From positions 1 to 24,775 of IMG/VR virus record IMGVR_UViG_3300009173_000075: a DNA stretch of 24,775 nt. One strand, written 5' to 3'. Every line of letters begins with the position of its first letter. Within the stretch, counting starts at the first letter, position 1. Source of the DNA: a virus. Below are positions 11,749 through 24,775 of this stretch, piece by piece. Position numbers and translations under genes: made by a program. Under the pieces are notes generated by a model, which was not told the origin of the DNA, ran no database searches, and saw only the letters and a program-made list of their open reading frames with translations.

Positions 11749-11776
11749 ACCCCCTTTTCGGAGGGGGTTATTTTTT
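11749..11776 (+). terminator. Rho-independent terminator at the convergence point
   Basis: ACCCCCT (11749-11755) pairs with AGGGGGT (11762-11768) around a 6-base loop, followed by TTA and six T. It ends the plus-strand operon. The minus-strand side lacks a U-tract after the hairpin. The stop codon of the opposing giant gene (11768-11770) lies at its edge. The gap 11652-11767 otherwise shows no gene. Confidence 0.85.
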
Positions 11777-14700
11777 GTTATACCGTTTAATTGGCGTGAA
11801 GTGGTTGTTTACGCCGTAAAGATGTTCCTCTGCGGCTCTACGCATCCCCGGAGACAGTGTTATACCGTAATGCATATTCTCAGTAGTTTTCATGTGTCCT
11901 TTCAATGAATCCATGATTGAGTCAATAGACAGTTCAAAACTTGGGTGTTTTGCATTAAACTTCAGTACGTCACCTTCAATACGCGCAATCTCGCCAAAAT
12001 CCGCTTGCCGTGCGGCGATATATATCTTCTTAGATAAGTTAGATCGTTGCTCAGAAATTGAACGATCTATACCCCTTGCACGTTGATTCTCTTCTTGGAT
12101 ACGTATGTATTCTGCTGGGGCGAATCCTAGGAACTGTGTAACCAACTCACCACCTGTCATATCATCATAGATAGGATCACCACGGCGTGAATATATACCC
12201 CCATCTTGTTGGTATCGACCTAAAGCCTTATACATATTGGAGATACCGGCAGGCAACATGCTCTCAATCCCTCTCTGCATTTCACCATTGTATATAATAT
12301 CCATCCCGCCTCGCGCTGTGCGTTTAAACACACTAGCGGCAGGGCCACCGAGATAGTAACCAATGAACTCTTCAGCGGATGGATCAGGGTTGTACCTGTT
12401 CTCTTGAAAAATTAATCCAGATAGACGTATGCGTGCTGCTACGTCAGCACCTATACCAGCTTCGTCTAGTATCTGGTTAAACGCGCCTTTGTACCAACCT
12501 TCTCCGACAGCGTTGCGGACAATTGTGTTAGTGTCGTCTTCGTCGTCATCAAGTAAGAACAAGTCTGCTATTAATTGCACCGCACCGTATAACGGAATAC
12601 CGTGTATCCCTGCAAAGAACAAGGAAGACAAATGGATACCTATAAGTTGTTTCGCGGCGATCTTCCGAACTTCTGGATCAGTTTGTAGTGATAGTGCGTC
12701 ACGCGCAGTTTTAAACATTGTGTAGTACATGCGCAGGCCGTAGGTCTTGTACATAGCGGCAACACGCAAAATGTGTTCTTGGGCAATACGCGGTGCAGTC
12801 TCAAGGGTAGAGCCACCATTATATTCTTGTGTATCGTAGAGTGCTTCTTGTGCCGCTAGGTTCTGTCGTTCAGCCATCGGCATCTTAGGGTTATCAGTTG
12901 ATATACGGTCTAACGCCAAATTATATGCCGCAACCATAGTCACCTGCCTGTTAAAGCGTTCTGCCTGATTGAACATCATGGCAGAAAGACCAGTACCAAC
13001 GTCAAGACCCACAGACGCTTTACGTGCTAACGTGTCAGTTTTACGTACTTTACCACCTTCTTGTAGTCCAAGAGCGTCAAAGATGAAGGATCGGTTCAGG
13101 TGTCCACGTTCCGACGCCAGCCGTACCAGTGGGGCTATACGTTCTAACTCCTTTATACGCTCCGCAGGGATGTCTTTTTCTTTCTTAACAATAAAGTCAC
13201 CGTTGTCGGTGATGTCATAATAGGCATCCAAACCGTGCGCCATTGCGATCTTATCTAATTTAGTTTCACCATACCCACGTGCGCCTGTCACAAACGATGT
13301 GGCGTGCATGATTTCGTTGTACGTTTTTTTGTATCCGTACCGTGCTCCGAGCATGGGGTAGGTAAACATTGGGGTCTGCGCTAGCTGCACCATAGCAGAA
13401 GCTGCGTTAAAGCCGATTGTGCCGACAAACGCGAGTTGGTTGAACGTACGAACATACCGTTCAATCTTTTTCATACCCGCGCCGTACTTGGCAAAGTTCA
13501 TGCGTATTTTGATTTCTTCACGTATTGTATTGAATTGGAAGTCTTTTCCAGCTCCAAGCCCGCCAATCCACGCGCTAGCTCCTTTATAGTCAGGCACTTC
13601 TAAGCCGGTAAGACGTACCTCCATGCTTTGAATAAGCGCGTTGTAGTTTAATTGCTCTACCTGACTAGCTAAATCATAGCCTTTGCTCTTCATAGCGTAG
13701 ACCGCATCCTGCATATATCCGGGCGTATTCCCACGTTTTTTCAGGGACTTAGCGAACGAACTTTCCGGTAGCGTATCAATGAATAGCCGCATGATTTCAG
13801 ATTGTACTTCGGGACCGACCTTGTTCGCGCTTAATGAATCAAGCACTTGTTTTACAAATGAGGATGGCGGTGCGTTGTTAAAGTCAGACGTTTTAAAGTC
13901 ACCATCCATACCTTTAACGGTCTCTGCTTTGACATTGGGGTCTTTCTTTAACTCGGCTAAAACTCGGTCGCGTTGCCGCTTACTGTCAAACATCTGGAAC
14001 ACGTACTGATCGTTCGCTGATGTAACTGCATCCGCTTCGTATTGGAACTCTAATTTGTAGCGGCCTTCACGTAGTAGCGGGAAGTAAACATCTAGTGTAT
14101 TACTGTCAAACAACTTAGCAAATACTTCTTTCTTCAACTTTGCCGCTGCATCAGGGTTCTCACGTAGTGCTTCGTCAATACGCCCATTAATCGCATCTTT
14201 AAGTTTTCCATATAGATTACGGTACATGTCGCGCATCGTGCGGTAGACTTTTTGCCCATCAGTACCCAACGCATCCCAGTCCCTACGTTGCAAATCCCAA
14301 ACTTTTTCTAGGCTGTTACCACTTTTATCAGTTTTGCCTTTGTATGTGCTACGTGGTTTGGTTGGGTCTACCTGATAGAGAGTAGCCCCATACTCTTGGC
14401 TGTATATTAAATTGTCAAGGTTCTTCCGTTTCTCTTTAGTGCCACTAGCGACCCACTTGTCTACAACCTTTACTTGTTCATGTACATACTTGTTAGCAGC
14501 CGACATTGAACCACGTCGTAACTCCACCAACTCGTGAAACTCTAACGCAAGTTCACCTAGTTCGGTGTCAGCTCTTTTAGCTATATCGCTAAGAGCCAGC
14601 GAATCTACTAATTTTAATTTGATAACTGTTAGCTTTTCCCCCAAACGGGAGAGCGTATCAAACATACCGTTAGCCCAGTCACTACGGAACTTGTCAGTCA

Positions 14701-17700
14701 AGGGTTGGTGTACTGCTTTCTGCGTAGCGTCTATCCCTTTCATTACTTTTTTGACACCCTTCGCCGTAGATTCCATCGCAAGTTCATTTGCGTTACGGAA
14801 CTTAGGTGCGGGTGCAAGAATGCCTTCTATAAGCCTGTCAGCGACTGTCTGCGCTGATTCAATCTTCTTAGGTTGCATACCAAAAAGTTTACGTAAGAAG
14901 TTCCCTACGATGTTGTTGAACCGTTGTAAGGCGTTAACCTCTGTACCGTTAGGGTTGATCGCGGCTAGTTTAGCTCGGAACTCAGGGTTTGACATTGCTT
15001 CAGCGGTAAACTCGTCCACGTCTTTCGCACCATACGCAGTATCAAGATAATCTTTAACATCCTCAAACAACTTAGTGAGCTGGCGCGTCATGGGGTGGCT
15101 TTTGTTTGCCAACGTAGCGGATGTCGCTGCGTGGCCCATTTCATGCAGTAGTACATGAGGGATCATGCCGATGTCAGAGTCAAGCTTGATAGTGTTTGTC
15201 GTAGGGTCAAACGATCCCGCATCCTTGAGGTCTTTGACAACCTCCACTTTGGTGTCGCCCACCACATCAGCGAGTTTACCTGCCATCTGTGCGATGCGTT
15301 TATCCGGTGTTGTAACCGACAGTGCTCGTAACGCGCCCTTTAAGTTGCCAGCACGTAATAGTCCACGTACAGCCGGGTGCAGCGCCACGTCCAGCCCCAT
15401 AACCGAACCACGCGCTAGCTGCTTCTCGAACCGCCGACCTAACTTTTCTAGGTTGTCACGTAGGTCTTGCTTCATGTCCGCTGCAAATTGCGCATCTTCT
15501 GCCCTATCTCTAGCGTCTAACTTGGCCTCACGTTGTCGGGACACCTCAATGTAATCGGTGCTTTCAATCCTTTGTATCTCACGTATTTCTTTAGCGAGGG
15601 TCTCGTCGATCCACTTGTTTGTCTCTGCCGATAGATTAGCTTTAGCCCAATCAAGTACCCGTTGCGCAGACTGACGGCCCGTGCCTTTGAAGAAATCAAC
15701 TTGGGCTTGGGGCATGTCATCAGTTGAACGGAATTGCTTGGTGCTGTGCGCCACGTCAAAGATAGCCATATATAGACCATCTGAGGGGCGACGAAGTTTA
15801 CCTAAATACGTTATCACAGCATTACCCAACTTATCACGTGCACGTGCGCCGTTAGTCAGTAGTGTGAGTATTTTTAGTTTGTCGTCAGGCGTAGTTCTTT
15901 CCTTGCCCACAGTTTGGGTAAACTCTTGGCTAGTCTGCTCTGCGAACTGTCTGGCCGGTTCTGGTTGTTCCGCAACCTGCGATAGTTCCATCTGCCTGAT
16001 TGTCGCCGTAAATTGTTCTGCTTGTTCTGCTTCCGTCTTGCGTGTCGTAGCGGTTGTCTTCTTCTTTTTCTTCGCGGTTGTCTTCTTCTTCTTGTTCCCC
16101 GCTGAATCTTTTGTGTCAACTTGTTTTGGTGTAGTAGCCTTCTTAGCCGTAGCTTTCTTCTTAGTCTTACGCTTTGGCTTTTCTTCTTCTGGCACCGCGA
16201 TTGGCTCTGGCGAATCTAATGCACGTTGCTGTGCTTCTTTTCCTCGTACAGGGTCACTAACGCCACTCCCAACACTTGCCACTCCTCTTCCTCTAGGTGG
16301 CTTAGGCATTTCGGTACTCGGTTGTGCAGTAGTATCGGTACGTGGGGTTCCCACAGGCGATCCAGAAACTGGAATGCTATCTCCACTTGGTGTTGGCTGA
16401 GTTGTCCTAGTCGCTGCATTGGTGTCTCCTTTAGCAGATGCACGTTTACGTGACTTAGGTTGAAACAACTCAAGCTGTGCTTCTGGCACCCCCTCAAGTT
16501 TCCGAGCTACATTCAGCCGAGTTTGTTCGGGTACTCTGCTGTTGTTAGCGAATGCAACAAACTGCTCACGGACCGTAGGATCATTAAGGTCTTTACCTTC
16601 TGTACGTATTCGTATCGGTGCCTTTGGCGCGATACCAAGGTCATCCATAAATTCTTTTGTTATTGTATTTGGAGCAGGTGGTGCCTCCTCTACAGGTGGT
16701 GTTTTCTTGCGGCCCATACCGGGGAACGACATCTGCGACGGAGTAACAGGTTTTTGTGTACGCTCTGGAATCCGTGCTTCCATCTCTGCAAGCTGTGCAG
16801 CTTCAGGTGCAGTTTCTATCGGGGGACCAACTTCAGGTGGCGCTGGTTCTTGTGGGCGCATACCTGCAAACGCATCAGCGGCCCTACGAATACGGGCAGC
16901 TTCTTGTTTTGTAGGTTTAGCGCGTTCACCACTAGTAATGTTCCGCCGCTCTAATTCTTTAGTAAATTTACGCTCAAGGTTAACGTAGCTACCTGTAGTC
17001 GGTTCACCAATAACTGCATCGAGGGCAGCTTCACGAGGTCTAGTACGGTCAGCACGCGCTTCGTCTTTTTGCGCGGCTGTATCAGTTTCTTGCTGCGATG
17101 CACCACGTACTTCTTCAAGGTCTAGTACAGCTTCTTCGTTAGCTTTTAAATAAGCCTCAATCTCGGCAATCTCGGCGTCGTTTAACTCACGCTGGTCCAT
17201 TTCGTTGAGGACCTCTGACTCCATACGGCTAATCATGTCTGGAGTGCGGTCATCCCGTACAGCTTCAAGGTTACTTACTACATCTATATCTTCAGCGACT
17301 CCACCATCTTCGGGTTCCGCAGTAGTTTCCGCAGTAGTTTCCGCAGTGGGCGCTAACGCCATTATTTCAGGGGTATCAGTTATGGTGTCAAACACCATAT
17401 CTTCTGTGATCGTCGCAGGGTCTACGTTAGCAGCTCTGAGTTTATCTACTGCGGCGATAACCTGCTCGTCAGTAAAGTCAGTTAGTGCGCTACCATAATC
17501 GGTACCTTGTTCAACCGTGCTAGCAACGCGTGAAGGGAACAACTCCCCCTGCACTTGGCCTTCTTCTAGTCTAGGCTGATCTACTTCTGGAAGTGTTACT
17601 TCTTCTACGTCGCTTGAAGACTCGGTCGCAGATCGCCTTACAGCGCGTCCTTTAACGAAAAAGTCTACTACGCCTTGGATAATAACACCTGCACCACCAC

Positions 17701-19087
17701 CTGCAATGGCTTCGTCAATTATGTCTGCGTCTAATAATTCTTTCTCAGGGTTATATCCCCGCTCGTTCATATTCTGTAGGAATGCGGCGGCGGCTTCCTG
17801 TGCGGCTTCTACGCCACCTGTAGTCAATGCACTACGTATTTTACTACCACCTTCTTCGACAGCTTTACCGCCGATTTTGCCCATTAACTTAGTCGCGCCC
17901 GGAATTTTTAAGATTTTACCTAAAGGTATGATTTCAAGGGAACCGATTGCGGCACCACGTAACGTAGCGGCATTACGTTCTTCTTCGGTAGCATCTGCGG
18001 CACGTGCACGTTCACTTGCTTCACCAGCACCTGCGCCAATACCGACAGCACCAGCGGCACCTAAACCTGCAATACCTGCCCCAAGTGCGCCTATACCTAA
18101 AGCACCAGCACCATAAGTAGCAGCAGCAGCGGCACCTAATGTACCTACAACTGAACCTAAACCAGAAGCTATTGTATACGTTAACGCGTCTTGGTCCCCA
18201 CCTTCGGGGCGTAGGTAGTTAGCAGCAGATTGTATTTTATCACGAGCGGCAAGTTCACTCTCTTCTTCGAGTAATGCAGCACCACCAAGCGCCGCCATCT
18301 CTCCGGTGTTAACAACACCAGCGCCAAAGCCTGAGAAGATGTTTCCAATAAACCCTGATTCTTCAGCACTAGAACGCCGTAGCTGAGCTTGTATTTCCGC
18401 CCGCAGAGCAGAAATCTCGGCTTGACCTCCACCTATTGCTTGACCTCCACCCATTGCACGTTGCAGTTCTGCCGCTAGTATTCGAGCGTCTTCAGTGCGA
18501 CCTGCTCGATCTGCATTTATTAGGGCTTGTTCGAGTTTCGCTAAAATAGAGTTCCTCGTTTGAGGGGGACTCATAGCTGCTACTCCCCCTGCGCGTCCCG
18601 TAGCTGGAGTAATAGAATTCGTACCAAAGCCTTTAATATTATTGGCGGCTGCGCTGATACGTCTAACTATAGAGTTAGAGTCAGAGGTAGCACCCGCTGC
18701 TATTAGATCGGTAAATTCTTCGTGGTTAAGTAATTCCCTAGCAGCCTCATCATACTTTCCTGCGTTGAATAAATTTAGCCAATTAGTATCCAGTAAGTCT
18801 CCCCTATAGTGCAGGTTCATTAGAGAACTTTGTACAATTGGGGGGAGTGCTCGGTATCCCGACACCTCATTTTCTAACTGACCTTCAAAACGCGCCCATA
18901 CCTCCTTGAAAGAAAGCTCAGATGCCCCCTGTGTTTGGCCTACGCCTGTAGTTGGTATGCGTTTACCGTCGAGATAGGTAGCGTCAGAAAATCCTTCTAA
19001 CACAACGAGTTTTTTCTGTGCTTCGGTTAAAGGGCCTTCACGCTTCTCCACCTGCGCGATTGCGTCTTCCCCATAATATATAGTCAT
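11768..19087 (-). CDS. Giant internal virion protein: GH24 lysozyme, membrane segment, zincin peptidase, long C-terminal domain
   Basis: A 2439-residue protein. Residues 1-160 are a GH24 lysozyme: E31, D40 and T46 keep the exact T4 lysozyme E11/D20/T26 spacing, and T46-x-G48-x-G50 follows; T4 H31 is Q51. Residues about 303-355 are Gly/Ala-rich and hydrophobic, a likely membrane segment. About 480-1020 is acidic and Pro-rich, ending in a Lys-rich tract (about 966-1022). A zincin site follows: H1315-E-M-G-H1319 with E1363 in D-E-F-T-A-E as candidate third ligand. The C-terminal 950 residues are mostly helical, with hydrophobic stretches near 1880-1915 and 2140-2180. The plan fits the polyvalent or ejected proteins of phages: injected, cutting peptidoglycan and perhaps cleaving a protein. 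Last gene of the minus-strand operon. Domain calls are firm, the role is inferred. Confidence 0.9.
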   Translation of the reverse strand: MTIYYGEDAIAQVEKREGPLTEAQKKLVVLEGFSDATYLDGKRIPTTGVGQTQGASELSFKEVWARFEGQLENEVSGYRALPPIVQSSLMNLHYRGDLLDTNWLNLFNAGKYDEAARELLNHEEFTDLIAAGATSDSNSIVRRISAAANNIKGFGTNSITPATGRAGGVAAMSPPQTRNSILAKLEQALINADRAGRTEDARILAAELQRAMGGGQAIGGGQAEISALRAEIQAQLRRSSAEESGFIGNIFSGFGAGVVNTGEMAALGGAALLEEESELAARDKIQSAANYLRPEGGDQDALTYTIASGLGSVVGTLGAAAAATYGAGALGIGALGAGIAGLGAAGAVGIGAGAGEASERARAADATEEERNAATLRGAAIGSLEIIPLGKILKIPGATKLMGKIGGKAVEEGGSKIRSALTTGGVEAAQEAAAAFLQNMNERGYNPEKELLDADIIDEAIAGGGAGVIIQGVVDFFVKGRAVRRSATESSSDVEEVTLPEVDQPRLEEGQVQGELFPSRVASTVEQGTDYGSALTDFTDEQVIAAVDKLRAANVDPATITEDMVFDTITDTPEIMALAPTAETTAETTAEPEDGGVAEDIDVVSNLEAVRDDRTPDMISRMESEVLNEMDQRELNDAEIAEIEAYLKANEEAVLDLEEVRGASQQETDTAAQKDEARADRTRPREAALDAVIGEPTTGSYVNLERKFTKELERRNITSGERAKPTKQEAARIRRAADAFAGMRPQEPAPPEVGPPIETAPEAAQLAEMEARIPERTQKPVTPSQMSFPGMGRKKTPPVEEAPPAPNTITKEFMDDLGIAPKAPIRIRTEGKDLNDPTVREQFVAFANNSRVPEQTRLNVARKLEGVPEAQLELFQPKSRKRASAKGDTNAATRTTQPTPSGDSIPVSGSPVGTPRTDTTAQPSTEMPKPPRGRGVASVGSGVSDPVRGKEAQQRALDSPEPIAVPEEEKPKRKTKKKATAKKATTPKQVDTKDSAGNKKKKTTAKKKKKTTATTRKTEAEQAEQFTATIRQMELSQVAEQPEPARQFAEQTSQEFTQTVGKERTTPDDKLKILTLLTNGARARDKLGNAVITYLGKLRRPSDGLYMAIFDVAHSTKQFRSTDDMPQAQVDFFKGTGRQSAQRVLDWAKANLSAETNKWIDETLAKEIREIQRIESTDYIEVSRQREAKLDARDRAEDAQFAADMKQDLRDNLEKLGRRFEKQLARGSVMGLDVALHPAVRGLLRAGNLKGALRALSVTTPDKRIAQMAGKLADVVGDTKVEVVKDLKDAGSFDPTTNTIKLDSDIGMIPHVLLHEMGHAATSATLANKSHPMTRQLTKLFEDVKDYLDTAYGAKDVDEFTAEAMSNPEFRAKLAAINPNGTEVNALQRFNNIVGNFLRKLFGMQPKKIESAQTVADRLIEGILAPAPKFRNANELAMESTAKGVKKVMKGIDATQKAVHQPLTDKFRSDWANGMFDTLSRLGEKLTVIKLKLVDSLALSDIAKRADTELGELALEFHELVELRRGSMSAANKYVHEQVKVVDKWVASGTKEKRKNLDNLIYSQEYGATLYQVDPTKPRSTYKGKTDKSGNSLEKVWDLQRRDWDALGTDGQKVYRTMRDMYRNLYGKLKDAINGRIDEALRENPDAAAKLKKEVFAKLFDSNTLDVYFPLLREGRYKLEFQYEADAVTSANDQYVFQMFDSKRQRDRVLAELKKDPNVKAETVKGMDGDFKTSDFNNAPPSSFVKQVLDSLSANKVGPEVQSEIMRLFIDTLPESSFAKSLKKRGNTPGYMQDAVYAMKSKGYDLASQVEQLNYNALIQSMEVRLTGLEVPDYKGASAWIGGLGAGKDFQFNTIREEIKIRMNFAKYGAGMKKIERYVRTFNQLAFVGTIGFNAASAMVQLAQTPMFTYPMLGARYGYKKTYNEIMHATSFVTGARGYGETKLDKIAMAHGLDAYYDITDNGDFIVKKEKDIPAERIKELERIAPLVRLASERGHLNRSFIFDALGLQEGGKVRKTDTLARKASVGLDVGTGLSAMMFNQAERFNRQVTMVAAYNLALDRISTDNPKMPMAERQNLAAQEALYDTQEYNGGSTLETAPRIAQEHILRVAAMYKTYGLRMYYTMFKTARDALSLQTDPEVRKIAAKQLIGIHLSSLFFAGIHGIPLYGAVQLIADLFLLDDDEDDTNTIVRNAVGEGWYKGAFNQILDEAGIGADVAARIRLSGLIFQENRYNPDPSAEEFIGYYLGGPAASVFKRTARGGMDIIYNGEMQRGIESMLPAGISNMYKALGRYQQDGGIYSRRGDPIYDDMTGGELVTQFLGFAPAEYIRIQEENQRARGIDRSISEQRSNLSKKIYIAARQADFGEIARIEGDVLKFNAKHPSFELSIDSIMDSLKGHMKTTENMHYGITLSPGMRRAAEEHLYGVNNHFTPIKRYNKK

Positions 19088-19147: not shown

Positions 19148-21355
19148 CTAAGGGGTATTAGCATCTAGAGCAGCTTTACCTGCATCGGAAAGGGTAAACT
19201 CATCGGAAAGCTCTGGCATCGGGCCATCCCCGCCTCTTACAATGCGCATAAGCGCCTCCTCAGTAGCTAACAATCCTGCATTGTTAAATTGCTGCGTTAA
19301 TTCTAGTTGTATCATCCTATATACCTCCCCTCGCGTTTTCTCTAGTTCCACCGCCTCTTCTGGTGTAGTAGCAGGATCACTGATTGCAATATCCAACTTA
19401 CGGAGCGTAAGATTATTATCTATCTTGTCTGTGAGTAACTTGAAACGATCTGATTGTAACTTCCTAAGCATCTCTCCTGCACGCAGTCCACGATCCGCAT
19501 CGGCAATATCTTTACGGAGTGCCTGAGTATACTCTATGTTTAAGGCTTCCAAGATGCTTGCCACATTATCTTTGTCAGCATTATAGTCTAGATTAGCTTG
19601 ATCAAGTGCTAGCTGAACTTCTTGCCCCCGTGTCTGTGAAAGAACAGTAGCAATCGTACGTCGATTCTCCATAGCTTGCGTAAGAGCATTATCACCAGAG
19701 ATTGTTGCTGACTTGGCAATATCCATGTCCATGTCCATCGCATTCTTCGCGATATCTAAACGCTTCAATAATCGGTCGCGGGACGATTGTTCTTGGGCTG
19801 CACGTTCATTTGCCATGCCCTGAGAACCACTAGCCATAGTTTGTCCAAAGGAACCAACACCTGCTGTATTACGCAAGAACGCCGAAATTTCTCGATCCCG
19901 TAACTTTTTGGGGTCTTGTTGCCTAACGTCCATTGCCTTGAGTTGTTCAAGGTACTCGTCCATTTTACCGCGTTTTTCATCACGTCCAAGGAACTTAGCG
20001 GTGTCATCACGTGCTGCTATTCTTGCCTTATCAGGGTCTTGTGCACCAATACCTGCACCTGTCAGTATATCTTGACCTGCTTGATTAGCATTTATGCCAG
20101 TCATATCAATAGTTGGTGCAGTTAGTTTATTTTCTTTTAGCATAGCTGCAAGACCACTTCCAACATCATCTTTAACTATAGAGCCATCCCCAACATTTGG
20201 AGGGGGTAGATTATTTCCAACTGCAGGGGGTACATTATTTCCAACTGCAGGGGGTACATTATTTCCAACTGCAGGGGGTACATTATTTCCAACTATAGAG
20301 CCATCCCCAACATCTACAGGAGGTTCATCATCTGAAGTTAAATATGTTTCTATATCTTCGGCAGACGGCGCTTCTAAATTACCCAAAGCCCATTCAGTCC
20401 CCTCATTAAATTTCCCCCCCTCATAGGGCAATTCCCAATCAGCAGGCATACCGGCAGCTCTTAATCCTCTACCAGTTAACTCCGCTATTCCCTTTAGAGG
20501 ATTCAGCACAGCTTTGTCATAAATCCAAGCTGGTGGAACAAGAAGAGCTTTAGTGCCGAGAACTGCGTTCGCTCTATCTTGCATAGTCTGTAAATACCTA
20601 TTTTGGTCTTTTTCAGATAATTTTTGAAATTCCTCTCTAGTTATAATTCCTTCAAGCGTAGTTTTACTTTTTTCGTTCGTCAGATCTTTATCGGCGTCTG
20701 AAACCGGTCGTCTCGTTCCGTTGTTCGGATTTACTGAAACCGTTTCTGCTGTTTTACGTTCAAGAAGAATAGCATCTCTAATTTGGTCGTCCGACATCGA
20801 TATTGGGTGACGTACATTCCATTTTGATAACTCTTCTGCTCGCTTGTATTCTGGACTTTCCTTCATTTGTGCGCGATATGCATCAATCTCATCTTGAGTA
20901 ACTTCATCCACTCCTCCACCGTCTCGAAATGCAACAATACCACCTGCCGCCATACGCATCGGGGCTTGCCCTTGTTGCTGTTGACGTTGCGCTAATGCAC
21001 CCAGTCCAGCTTGCATTTTTTGTACTTGCTGTGGGTTAGCCGCACCTTGTTTAGCTACACGCTGCATATTTTTCTGTTGTTTCTTTTGTGCATTCTGCAT
21101 GATCCCTGTCGTTTGCTTGACAAGGTCTTGCTTAGTCATCTCAAGAAGTTGACGTTCTTTTTGCTGTTTAATAGTCTGAGGGTCTTGTTGCATCTCCAAC
21201 TGCACTTTACGCATAGCATCGTCTTTTTCAGACTTCAGGCGTTGTAGTGCTAACAGGTCAAGGAGTTCTTGATTGGCTGCATATCGTTGCTGTAGTGCTT
21301 GAGGATTGCCTCGGTACGCATCTACGCGTTGTGCAATATCTTGATCAATCGCCAT
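19148..21355 (-). CDS. Coiled-coil virion-associated protein (735 aa)
   Basis: No named family recognised. Residues about 15-130 are Gln/Lys-rich coiled coil (LQRLKSEKDDAMRKVQLEM), followed by M-R-M-A-A-G-G-I-V-A-F, a motif recurring in the neighbouring genes. Residues about 345-400 hold three perfect and one variant copies of VGNNVPPA between two VGDGSIV segments. About 450-700 is again helical (RLLKRLDIAKNAMDMDMDIAK, described as alternating Met/Asp helix; RKLDIAISDP). It starts 3 bp after the 303-residue gene, with GGGGAGG as ribosome site inside that gene's end. By position between gp14-like and lysozyme-bearing proteins it may be a second core or ejection protein, like T7 gp15 in place but not in sequence. 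Confidence 0.75.
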   Translation of the reverse strand: MAIDQDIAQRVDAYRGNPQALQQRYAANQELLDLLALQRLKSEKDDAMRKVQLEMQQDPQTIKQQKERQLLEMTKQDLVKQTTGIMQNAQKKQQKNMQRVAKQGAANPQQVQKMQAGLGALAQRQQQQGQAPMRMAAGGIVAFRDGGGVDEVTQDEIDAYRAQMKESPEYKRAEELSKWNVRHPISMSDDQIRDAILLERKTAETVSVNPNNGTRRPVSDADKDLTNEKSKTTLEGIITREEFQKLSEKDQNRYLQTMQDRANAVLGTKALLVPPAWIYDKAVLNPLKGIAELTGRGLRAAGMPADWELPYEGGKFNEGTEWALGNLEAPSAEDIETYLTSDDEPPVDVGDGSIVGNNVPPAVGNNVPPAVGNNVPPAVGNNLPPPNVGDGSIVKDDVGSGLAAMLKENKLTAPTIDMTGINANQAGQDILTGAGIGAQDPDKARIAARDDTAKFLGRDEKRGKMDEYLEQLKAMDVRQQDPKKLRDREISAFLRNTAGVGSFGQTMASGSQGMANERAAQEQSSRDRLLKRLDIAKNAMDMDMDIAKSATISGDNALTQAMENRRTIATVLSQTRGQEVQLALDQANLDYNADKDNVASILEALNIEYTQALRKDIADADRGLRAGEMLRKLQSDRFKLLTDKIDNNLTLRKLDIAISDPATTPEEAVELEKTRGEVYRMIQLELTQQFNNAGLLATEEALMRIVRGGDGPMPELSDEFTLSDAGKAALDANTP
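20220..20291. repeat. Three perfect 24-bp tandem repeats (VGNNVPPA)
   Basis: Units at 20220-20243, 20244-20267 and 20268-20291 are identical and in frame. A partial unit precedes them, and near-identical 20-bp segments (AACTATAGAGCCATCCCCAA) flank the array on both sides, near 20174 and 20291. The array forms a Pro/Asn linker in the 735-residue protein. Confidence 0.9.
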
Positions 21356-21358
21356 TTC

Positions 21359-22270
21359 TTAACCTCCCCACTCGTTTACATCGTATGTAGGTGGTGGTTC
21401 GGTGTTTTCTGATGTTGGTGGTGCGGTGTTTTCTGATGTTGGTTGTTGATTCTGCTCTCCCGGCAAAAATACTTTGCTAAGCAAGTCGTATACACCACCA
21501 GAACCAGATAAAAAGTCTGATAATGCGCTAGGTTGCGCATAAGAATATGCTTGCGCGGCAATAGGTAGTCCTTGTAATAACGACTGTTGGTATTGCACTT
21601 GTTTGTATGGAAAGTCTCGCTCTTCTTCAAACTGAAGTCGGTCTGCTGTAATACCTTCTTGTTCAATATTACGCTGTAGTTGACCTGCCTCTATTTGGTT
21701 AGCTAACGCTTGCAAGCCGAATTGGTTCGCAAAGTTTTGCGATTGCTGCCCCTGCTGTTGTTCTGCGTTGAACTGTCCCCGTGCTTGTTGAAACGCTTGG
21801 TTATACCCTTGCCCTGTAACATTTGCCATATTAGATAACATAGCGCGGTTAAGTTCTGAATCAGCTAATGCTTGTCTTGAACCACCATAAGCCCCGGCTT
21901 GAGTAAGACGCCCTGCTTGTTCAACACGTGATTTTTCAGTTTGCCTACGTAGTTCGTCAAGTTGTGGCTGCAAAGCTGCATTTGTGTATGGGTTCATGTA
22001 CTGTTGTGCAGTACCCTGTTGCGTAAAAGACTGTGGTTGGTAACTACCCATTTGCTCTGCTGGAACTGTTAGCCCTGCAATACCTTGGAACGCTTGGTTC
22101 TGTAGGTTTGATTGGCCCGCAGTAAGAGGTCCTGAATAACCTTGATAGTTTTCATTGGCAAGTGCGGCACCCTTACCAAGCATGGACGTTACATATGGCC
22201 CTGCCCAGTTAGAAAAGGAAGATTCCTTACCTGTTACACCTCCTACTGGTTCTAAAGGATCAACTGACAT
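21359..22270 (-). CDS. Gln-rich internal virion protein, gp14-like in position
   Basis: A 303-residue protein rich in Gln, Ala and Asn. The central part (about 85-200) has the pattern Y-M-N-P-Y-T-N-A-A-L-Q-P-Q-L-D-E-L, then TQAGAYGGSRQALADSELN, then long helical repeats ending FNAEQQQGQ. This pattern is familiar from marine podovirus structural proteins placed among internal core or ejection proteins; the assignment is by style and place, as T7 gp14 itself is shorter. The last 30 residues carry a duplicated PTSENT-like segment (PTSENTAP, PTSENTEP). It has a GAGGTGAG ribosome site and lies 8 bp after the 272-residue gene. Confidence 0.65.
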   Translation of the reverse strand: MSVDPLEPVGGVTGKESSFSNWAGPYVTSMLGKGAALANENYQGYSGPLTAGQSNLQNQAFQGIAGLTVPAEQMGSYQPQSFTQQGTAQQYMNPYTNAALQPQLDELRRQTEKSRVEQAGRLTQAGAYGGSRQALADSELNRAMLSNMANVTGQGYNQAFQQARGQFNAEQQQGQQSQNFANQFGLQALANQIEAGQLQRNIEQEGITADRLQFEEERDFPYKQVQYQQSLLQGLPIAAQAYSYAQPSALSDFLSGSGGVYDLLSKVFLPGEQNQQPTSENTAPPTSENTEPPPTYDVNEWGG

Positions 22271-22278
22271 TTCTCACC

Positions 22279-23097
22279 TCACACTGGTAATATGGTTTTA
22301 GGGTCAATCTCTTTACCCTGTTTTTTGTTGCCTGTACGTGCTTTTCGTACTCGACTCATCATTTGTTCTAAAACTTTTGCCCCTGCATCGGAGTTACCGT
22401 TACCAAGGTGGCTAACAATATCAGCAGGAATAACAAATTCACCATCACTTAGACGTGCTTCTTGCCGTCCATCAATTCGTGCGGGTACTCTATCTGCCAT
22501 ACCATCCGTGCTACCGTCTAAATACTTCCCCTTTTTTAGCCCAGCAAGCCCCCCTGCCGCCATTAATCGTTGATCCGGCTGATATTGGGGTTTAGGTTGT
22601 GATCCAAGCATGGAACCGGGCTGTCCACCCACTCCGCCTCCCATAAGCTCCTGCCGTGCTGGGTTACGTATATTAGCTTCTGATAGCTTAGCAGCCTGTG
22701 CTGCCATACGTTTCTCTGCTGCGCCTATATCGTCATCTTCGGCTATATACTGCGTATCAGTAAAGTACCTACGCCCAGAGCTACCGGGGCGTCTATTAGG
22801 ATCATACATCATTTGGGCTTCTCTATCCGTACCTGCAAGTGCTCCAAGCCCTTGTGGAACTTGCGTACGCTGAGCACGTAAAGCGGGAACACCCCCTTGA
22901 TAACCCGTCGGAGGAATTTGTGGTTGCGCGAACCCATTAGATTGACTACCTAAGTAGCCAAGACCCATAGAACCAAGCTGTACAACCCCCTTTGGAGTTG
23001 TAAAATAATCTATCGCATTACTACCTGCTTTGACTATACCGCTACCAAACTGGCTTAGTAGGTCGCTAAACCATCCGCTTTCAGCGTCGTCTGCCAT
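22279..23097 (-). CDS. Phage virion-associated protein with A-x-G-G motif and conserved C-terminal domain
   Basis: A 272-residue protein. The first third is hydrophobic and Gly-rich (SQFGSGIVKAGSNAID, GSMGLGYLGSQ). Near 180 comes R-L-M-A-A-G-G-L-A-G-L, like the motif in the 735-residue protein. The C-terminal 70 residues read DRVPARIDGRQEARLSDGEF, then VIPADIVSHLGNGN and KVLEQMMSRVRKAR, a block I associate with many marine phage structural proteins, of unknown role. Its start overlaps the previous gene's stop (TAATG) with GGAGG ahead. Probably a minor tail or core component; not certain. Confidence 0.65.
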   Translation of the reverse strand: MADDAESGWFSDLLSQFGSGIVKAGSNAIDYFTTPKGVVQLGSMGLGYLGSQSNGFAQPQIPPTGYQGGVPALRAQRTQVPQGLGALAGTDREAQMMYDPNRRPGSSGRRYFTDTQYIAEDDDIGAAEKRMAAQAAKLSEANIRNPARQELMGGGVGGQPGSMLGSQPKPQYQPDQRLMAAGGLAGLKKGKYLDGSTDGMADRVPARIDGRQEARLSDGEFVIPADIVSHLGNGNSDAGAKVLEQMMSRVRKARTGNKKQGKEIDPKTILPV

Positions 23098-24775
23098 TAT
23101 GAACCTCCAATTATATTCAACAACTTATCAGTTGTATCGTCTACTTGTCCACCCTCTGCGAAATCATTCGGCCTTCTACTTCTAGCACGAAAATCCGCCA
23201 TGTCTGTCCGAATAGCTAAATTATGCTCACGAGCCTCTCTATCTCGCTCTTCAAACGCATCGTATTGAGCTTGAGTGTAAATTATGCCTTTTTCATCAAG
23301 AGAAGCTAGGTTTGCTTGTCGCCGCCTACTCAAATGCTGATCCTCCATAGAGTCTACTTCAGCCTCAAGAAGCTCTGGACGGGCTTCTTGAAGTTTTTTC
23401 AATAGGTCTTGTTCTGCCTCCTCATAAGACGGAGAAGACGGAGAGTTTTTTCTATGGTAGTAGACCGACTCCTCCCACTCTTCAGGAGTACGCGACATCC
23501 AAGCATCAAAAAGTTGAGTCCTCTTTTCTTTTAGGCCCGCACGATGACGAAATTCGTGAGCTTGTGTCCTAGGATTAGCGCTATCAATACCGAGTATATA
23601 AGCCATATCCAGTTCGCTGCCTTCCATGTTATTTTCTTGAAAAACTTCGTCATACCCGGTTCTTTTTTCCCTAGCCCTTATAGCTTCTATCGCCTCTTCA
23701 TGGGAGAGGTGTGGTTGAGGAGGGAAGTAAACACCCGCCTTGTTCCAGTTAGGGCTATTAAAAAGCGTTTTAATACGCGTATCATCAATAGCACTAGCGC
23801 CAAAGGGTCCCATAGCGTCACGAATAGCCCATTCAAACTCCGAGTTGCCAAGTTGACCCTGCGCTATACGCGCTCTGCGAAAATCATTAGGGTCCTCGTA
23901 CCCTATTTCGAGAAGCTCTTCATTAGTCATTGTTACCGGTTGCAACCCTAATTCTGCTATCTGCTCGTCCAACATCTTCTGCTCAAAGAGCGCCCCTATG
24001 CCCTCCTGTTCCACCCTTCCACCGTCCGCGTATTGAGCTGTTCCCGCGTTATACGGAACATACGAAGCATACGGACTAGGAAACCTTGCTGCTTGCTCAG
24101 GATTAGCAAATATACTGTTAAAGTCGTAAATGTAGCGTAAATCTACCGGATCGGGTGTTCTAACATCGACTTGTTGCCCCATAGCATCAGGGGCTTGCAA
24201 CGCTGCTTGGAGGAACTGACGGCCTCCAGCACGTCGTGCTTCGTTTTCAATATTCGTAACAATGTTTGATTCTATTGCGGTAACAGTATCTATTACTTGA
24301 TCCTGATTTTGATCCTGATTTTGCTCCATTTCGGTAATAGTATCTATTACTTGATCCTGATTTTGCTTTATTTGGTTCATTAAATTCGTTTCAGTATCAA
24401 CCAGTTGTCCAGCAATAAGATCAACAACAAAATCAATATCAGCTTGGGTTACTTCTGCCTCAGATTTACCTATAAGATTACTTATTGCAGCAATATCTTC
24501 ATCTACAGCAACTTCACCCTCTTCAGCAACTTCACCCTCTTCAGCAACTTCACCCTCTTCAGCAACTTCCCCTTCTTCTATAAGATCATCTTCAACTATA
24601 AGATCATCTTCAATAATAGGATCATCTTCAATAATAGGATCATCTTCAACTATAAGATCATCTTCAACTATAGGGTCATCTTCAATAATAGGATCATCTT
24701 CAATAATAGGATCATCTTCAATAATAGGATCATCTTCAATAATAGGATCATCTTCAATAATAGGATCATCTTCAA
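23097..24775 (-). CDS. Virion-operon protein with acidic repeat region and HExxH motif, partial at the right edge
   Basis: The frame is open from the stop at 23097 to the window edge, 558 residues visible; the ATG at 24378-24380 (MNQIKQNQ) is internal, so the true start lies outside. The visible N-terminal part is 11 copies of an EDD[PL]I[IV] hexapeptide, then four EEGEVA copies, then a duplicated QDQVIDT segment. The rest has Y-A-D-G-G-R-V and F-A-E-G-G-Q-V motifs and, counting from the ATG at 24380, H275-E-F-R-H279 in Q-A-H-E-F-R-H-R-A-G-L, a possible zinc-peptidase site. It is coupled to the next gene by TAATG. Role unknown; probably a virion protein, with the repeat region a flexible acidic arm. 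Confidence 0.7.
   Translation of the reverse strand, partial: EDDPIIEDDPIIEDDPIIEDDPIIEDDPIIEDDPIVEDDLIVEDDPIIEDDPIIEDDLIVEDDLIEEGEVAEEGEVAEEGEVAEEGEVAVDEDIAAISNLIGKSEAEVTQADIDFVVDLIAGQLVDTETNLMNQIKQNQDQVIDTITEMEQNQDQNQDQVIDTVTAIESNIVTNIENEARRAGGRQFLQAALQAPDAMGQQVDVRTPDPVDLRYIYDFNSIFANPEQAARFPSPYASYVPYNAGTAQYADGGRVEQEGIGALFEQKMLDEQIAELGLQPVTMTNEELLEIGYEDPNDFRRARIAQGQLGNSEFEWAIRDAMGPFGASAIDDTRIKTLFNSPNWNKAGVYFPPQPHLSHEEAIEAIRAREKRTGYDEVFQENNMEGSELDMAYILGIDSANPRTQAHEFRHRAGLKEKRTQLFDAWMSRTPEEWEESVYYHRKNSPSSPSYEEAEQDLLKKLQEARPELLEAEVDSMEDQHLSRRRQANLASLDEKGIIYTQAQYDAFEERDREAREHNLAIRTDMADFRARSRRPNDFAEGGQVDDTTDKLLNIIGGS
24278..24365. repeat. 54-bp-spaced direct repeat (two 34-bp copies)
   Basis: Copies at 24278-24311 and 24332-24365 differ at one base. 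They encode the duplicated QDQVIDT segments; an extra 12-bp QNQD unit follows the first. The 54-bp offset is three times the 18-bp period of the adjacent arrays. Confidence 0.85.
24507..24578. repeat. Four 18-bp tandem repeats (EEGEVA)
   Basis: Units of AGCAACTTCACCCTCTTC on the plus strand, three exact and a variant fourth, in frame with the minus-strand gene. Confidence 0.9.
24579..24775. repeat. Eleven 18-bp tandem repeats (EDDPII type) running to the window edge
   Basis: Units based on AATAGGATCATCTTCAAT, with variants carrying TATAAG or TATAGG at the start. The last five are identical apart from the cut-off end, and the array continues beyond the window. All changes keep the frame. Confidence 0.92.

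Follow-up and report, generated by a model that had tools for sequence, protein, structure and literature searches.

The window analysed here, an entire IMG/VR virus record of 24,775 bp, ends at its right side in a field of short tandem repeats, inside a reading frame that is still open. The original prediction, made from the DNA letters, interpreted this field as an acidic arm of variable length on a probable virion protein. The locus thus raises the question of whether the repeats form an arm at all, what maintains them, and what part they might play in the phage particle.

Repeat arrays at the right end of the window

The features on which the analysis is based are, from left to right:

21359-22270, minus strand: 303-aa neighbour protein; weak match to phrog_4287 (DNA ejection protein), E 1.2e-5; relatives with up to 90% identity
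22279-23097, minus strand: 272-aa neighbour protein, used as the synteny marker for relatives; 26 related loci, up to 72% identity
23097-23156, minus strand: conserved C-terminal tail EGGQVDDTTDKLLNIIGGS and stop; 79-86% identity to relatives over 20-24 residues
23157-24065, minus strand: 303-aa insert with the motif HEFRH, absent from every relative examined
24066-24509, minus strand: conserved C-terminal domain of the giant protein (DEDIAAISNLIGK ... YIYDFNSIFANP ... FPSPYA); 49-55% identity to L002, L029, L031, L005 and L007
24271-24365, minus strand: 54-bp-offset duplication (QDQVIDT...) inside the conserved C-terminal domain; one copy in relatives such as L002
24507-24578, minus strand: EEGEVA array of four 18-bp units, on the C-terminal side of the EDDPII array and in register with it (TRF and unit table)
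24576-24775, minus strand: EDDPII-type hexapeptide array of eleven 18-bp units, truncated by the contig end (TRF and unit table)

TRF finds an 18-bp unit in 10.9 copies at 24580-24775 (93% match) and a second 18-bp array of 4.3 copies at 24502-24578 (94% match). In minus-strand translation, starting at 24773, the units are five EDDPII, one EDDPIV, one EDDLIV, two EDDPII, one EDDLIV, one EDDLIE and four EEGEVA. The field at 24507-24775 is thereby composed of the eleven EDDPII-type and four EEGEVA hexads that had been predicted, far above chance. Since the contig stops within the array, eleven is a minimum count. The EDDPII array carries a charge of about -0.5 per residue, so that its acidic character is upheld. 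The two kinds of unit agree in length and register and lack clear sequence homology; their descent from one ancestral unit is not demonstrable. An exact search placed the EEGEVA unit in no other viral contig, and an Rfam search of the window returned no match.

The outermost five EDDPII units are identical in their DNA, as had been noticed, and form a perfect period-18 run of 100 bp (24676-24775) that reaches the contig edge. Because these units sit exactly at the break, they attest to at least 100 bp of homogeneous repeat but say nothing of when it arose, and the suggestion of current expansion is unsupported. The proposal that one 18-bp rule governs the whole field holds for the EDDPII and EEGEVA arrays but does not extend to the 54-bp-offset duplication. 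The latter is present (copies at 24271-24311 and 24325-24365, 93%), but it is an event separate from the 18-bp arrays, with a different sequence, and the stretch also contains a 12-bp repeat (NQDQ, 24297-24327). By chance alone, one in six in-frame duplications will have a length divisible by 18 bp, so that the 54-bp offset is no proof of an 18-bp rule.

The 303-aa insert interrupts the conserved C-terminal tail of the giant protein (PSPYA / EGGQVDDTTDK). Its HEFRH corresponds to the HExxH pattern and may be zinc-protease-like. Searches of the loci, phage records, Pfam, PHROGs and PDB, the last of these by sequence, gave no relative of the insert, whose predicted structure has a pLDDT of 52. 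Direct searches with the window reading frame gave no match in viral contigs or phage records; since the search words came mostly from this insert, which the relatives lack, the relatives were reached via the neighbouring genes.

The other side of the array

The EDDPII unit was searched, both exactly and in a codon-degenerate version, through 2.9 million viral contigs. Both searches led to a single other record, L107 (9,281 bp), which breaks inside an EDDPII array from the opposite side, after 13.7 units. The last gene of L107 supplies 1,608 residues before the break, on the N-terminal side of the array. Its EDDPII unit matches that of the window letter for letter, its array has interspersed variants of its own, and the array is continuous with a homologous gene. 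The L107 part is 53-65% identical to the N-terminal portion of the relatives' proteins of 1,805-2,598 aa, and the window part aligns to the C-terminal module of the same proteins, so that in the relatives both halves fall within one gene. The composition of matched segments from L107 and the window compares at 0.718, close to the mean of 0.708 for pairs from the same genome versus 0.549 across genomes, with the caveat that a few other records match equally well. This comparison replaced a ranking by whole-contig composition (rank 64 of 107), which was confounded by gene content.

From these sequences, none of which spans the junction, we infer that L107 and the window represent two halves of the gene of one phage species. 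With the two records as gene halves, the array is internal, and what had been taken for an end arm becomes a segment preceded by the 1,608 residues of L107. If both end runs are one run, the array would hold at least about 20 EDDPxx hexads.

It might be argued that the array arose in assembly, through the collapse of a repeat or as a chimera, as the contig stops within a perfect 100-bp run and short-read assemblies typically do so at long repeats. L107, however, is a separate record with its own array variants running on into a homologous gene, and a stretch located upstream in L107 has a 99.9% copy in yet another record, L112. An artefact is accordingly given hardly any probability, and only the copy number in the assembled array is unreliable. 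An exact assembler k-mer was considered as the cause of both break points; the perfect runs differ (100 bp in the window, 86 bp in L107), and no k is claimed.

A P22-type tail stabilization gene lies upstream of the giant gene in L107, and likewise in relatives, and the genes for the 272-aa and the ejection-like 303-aa protein lie downstream in the window, neighbours that agree with the joining of the two records. The order of the tail and ejection genes is P22-like, and the uncultured source phage is probably short-tailed. The gene thus lies inside a cassette of virion proteins, in line with the original prediction of a virion protein, and its product would be located in the virion.

Several other features of this cassette deserve mention. 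A motif A-x-GG-x-V (MAAGGIV, MAAGGLA, YADGGRV, FAEGGQV) occurs in several of its proteins, for example at 19148-24065 (minus strand), and also in the cultured phages DSL-LC04, HTVC027P and MinM2; it is possibly a shared packaging or processing signal. The gene at 11768-19087 (minus strand) encodes a protein of 2,439 aa with matches to LPD39 (Pfam) and to DarB-like antirestriction profiles, and with an HEMGH motif. A 370-aa tail-region protein of L107 (L107:2875-3984) matches phrog_35856, of unknown function, at E 7e-38 and resembles, by eye only, a ketosynthase-type enzyme (KTHGTGTPVNNAAE).

Architecture and composition of the giant protein family

The giant protein has about 1,600-2,600 aa in the relatives, and its architecture was measured in 13 of them with a complete gene. 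The N-terminal part (1147 +/- 34 aa) and the C-terminal part (204 +/- 9 aa) are both near-constant, whereas the middle extends from 284 to 1236 aa (701 +/- 277, CV 0.40), an about four-fold range. The predicted variability in length therefore exists between species. The net charge per residue is -0.18 in the middle versus -0.08 and -0.11 in the flanks, and in each of the 13 genes the middle as a whole is acidic.

The conserved N-terminal part is followed by YVDPRQ(V/I)T...VGQ repeats in variable number. The repeats of the middle vary from member to member and include 147-bp YVDPRQVT units, coiled-coil-like GVE/ETNL units and short arrays, DEPVTDD among them. Distant members outside the 13 genes have arrays of DPVDDT (18 bp, 17 copies), PEPEPE, poly-D, DEGDV, SQDE and DPTG, a few members have uncharged arrays (GTGTGT, PTTTT), and some are devoid of any short array. 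The longest array noted has 219 aa (L013, aa 1426-1644). In L037, a close relative, the start of an acidic 33-bp array falls on the very residue at which the array of L107 starts. Absence of the arm from homologs had been named as an observation that would speak against the original prediction; the homologs carry different repeats at that place, most of them acidic. Indels linked to repeats are seen in some near-identical pairs (ADPT in L043/L045; 156 aa beside 114-bp repeats in L004/L031), and most such pairs show no difference in copy number. The short Pfam matches of L031 (Sigma70_r3, UPF0154, DUF7116) were dismissed as spurious, being of 16-31 residues each in the repeat field with none passing alone. 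The acidic array scores 19.8 bits against the LED repeat (PF20854), below the Pfam cut-off of 59.

Selection was assessed from distinct single-base variants in short-period arrays, 30 of them in 21 genes once near-duplicates had been removed. Family-wide, 65 variants are synonymous and 25 nonsynonymous, with 21.7 synonymous expected (p 9e-22; a shared history of duplication links the variants to one another, so that this and the following p-values are too small). Third codon positions account for 68 of the 90 changes, and controls in shifted frames were negative (9:79 and 8:43). In the acid columns an acid was lost 8 times versus 28.1 expected. The strong synonymous bias across the family suggests that composition is maintained while the units turn over. 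The signal depends largely on the poly-D and PEPE arrays: without L025, L013, the window and L107, the acidic arrays give 11:12 with 5.1 synonymous expected (p 0.006), and the retention of acids loses significance (p 0.07). The window and L107 alone give 5:5, also not significant (p 0.08).

These numbers bear on the main rival explanation, neutral slippage, according to which a tolerant linker gathers in-frame repeats with the frame as the sole constraint, the acidity being that of the seed sequence. Array units that differ among species, the uncharged arrays of some members and the 5:5 ratio of the window and L107, which is not distinguishable from neutral, are all compatible with it. Against it stand the excess of synonymous changes and the keeping of acid codons across the family, with negative controls in shifted frames, and a middle that is acidic as a whole in 13 of 13 genes; it is judged unlikely.

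An acidic decoy is a second alternative: the array would mimic DNA, or bind a host or virion protein or divalent cations, its charge serving the binding. The density of charge agrees with this, as does an EF-hand-like DVTGDGQITLDDQ (DVTGDGQITLDD) segment that adjoins the C-terminal domain in L002, L029 and L031. This segment, however, is missing from the window protein (reading frame near 24380-24430, minus strand), and proline in most units together with the free variation of unit and length is unlike a shaped mimic. DNA mimicry and host interaction, both raised in the original prediction, are unsupported. Such a function is considered very improbable.

The explanation that is probably correct is that the array belongs to an internal acidic spacer, selected for composition and grown by slippage, in a giant protein encoded among P22-like tail and ejection genes, where it likely serves as a tether within a virion or ejection protein. 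The spacer would connect the roughly 1,150 conserved N-terminal residues and the YVDPRQ(V/I)T...VGQ field to the C-terminal module of about 200 residues. It would gain, lose and re-seed units through in-frame tandem duplication, presumably by replication slippage or by recombination. What selection would preserve is the reading frame together with a composition of low complexity and mostly acidic character, not one sequence or length. A disordered spacer of this kind, soluble, extended and charge-repelling, could tether two parts of the protein, a role that fits the composition and the gene position. It is tentatively suggested that the spacer, selected for charge and free in sequence, belongs to an undescribed family of giant proteins in uncultured phages and acts electrostatically, with an adjustable length, in the machinery of genome ejection, its units and length having been replaced repeatedly while the mostly acidic composition was kept.

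Relation to known systems

The apparent end arm has turned out to be the spacer of a family of giant phage proteins whose L107 part matches none of 50,697 phage records. The replacement of repeats under a constraint on composition is a recurrent pattern that can be checked in sequence data. The window and L107 both break in one array, showing that such spacers can split metagenomic phage genomes. As arrays cut assemblies, short-read viromes may understate how common such giant proteins are.

The podovirus ejection proteins (P22 gp7, gp20 and gp16; T7 gp14-gp16) are the closest in gene position, since the giant gene follows a P22 gp10-like stabilization gene and adjoins an ejection-like gene. 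Models of T7 gp15 contain disordered segments, according to a review of these proteins in which acidic tandem arrays are not mentioned (PMC8954989). The giant protein differs in being much larger and in having no sequence relation to the gp7, gp16 and gp20 families; neither it nor the window reading frame matches a PHROG or Pfam ejection family. As the likeness is one of gene position and not of sequence, the giant protein is not filed as a member.

The "tail tape measure protein" of DSL-LC04 (WJZ48115.1) occupies the same slot between stabilization and ejection-like proteins and has an internal tandem repeat (AGMDLSSAQGTLGGPSY). It has 760 aa, however, its repeat is not strongly acidic, and its C-terminal motif resembles, by eye, the 272-aa neighbour in the window rather than the giant protein.

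A literature search on repeats in phage virion proteins found nothing specific. A survey of low-complexity regions (LCRs) found acidic examples in halobacteria; half of the phage proteomes that it covered contained LCRs, and those of phages were rich in Ala, Gly or Pro and at most 115 aa long (PMC6821194). The spacer repeats are likewise biased in composition, lie in frame and vary in length or unit among relatives, as low-complexity or hypervariable coding tandem repeats do. Since LCRs in phage proteins are already known (PMC6821194), the spacer is a variant of these and not a new kind, distinguished from the phage LCRs of the survey by arrays, mostly acidic and up to 219 aa long, that are found again and again in the central part of a single family of giant proteins.
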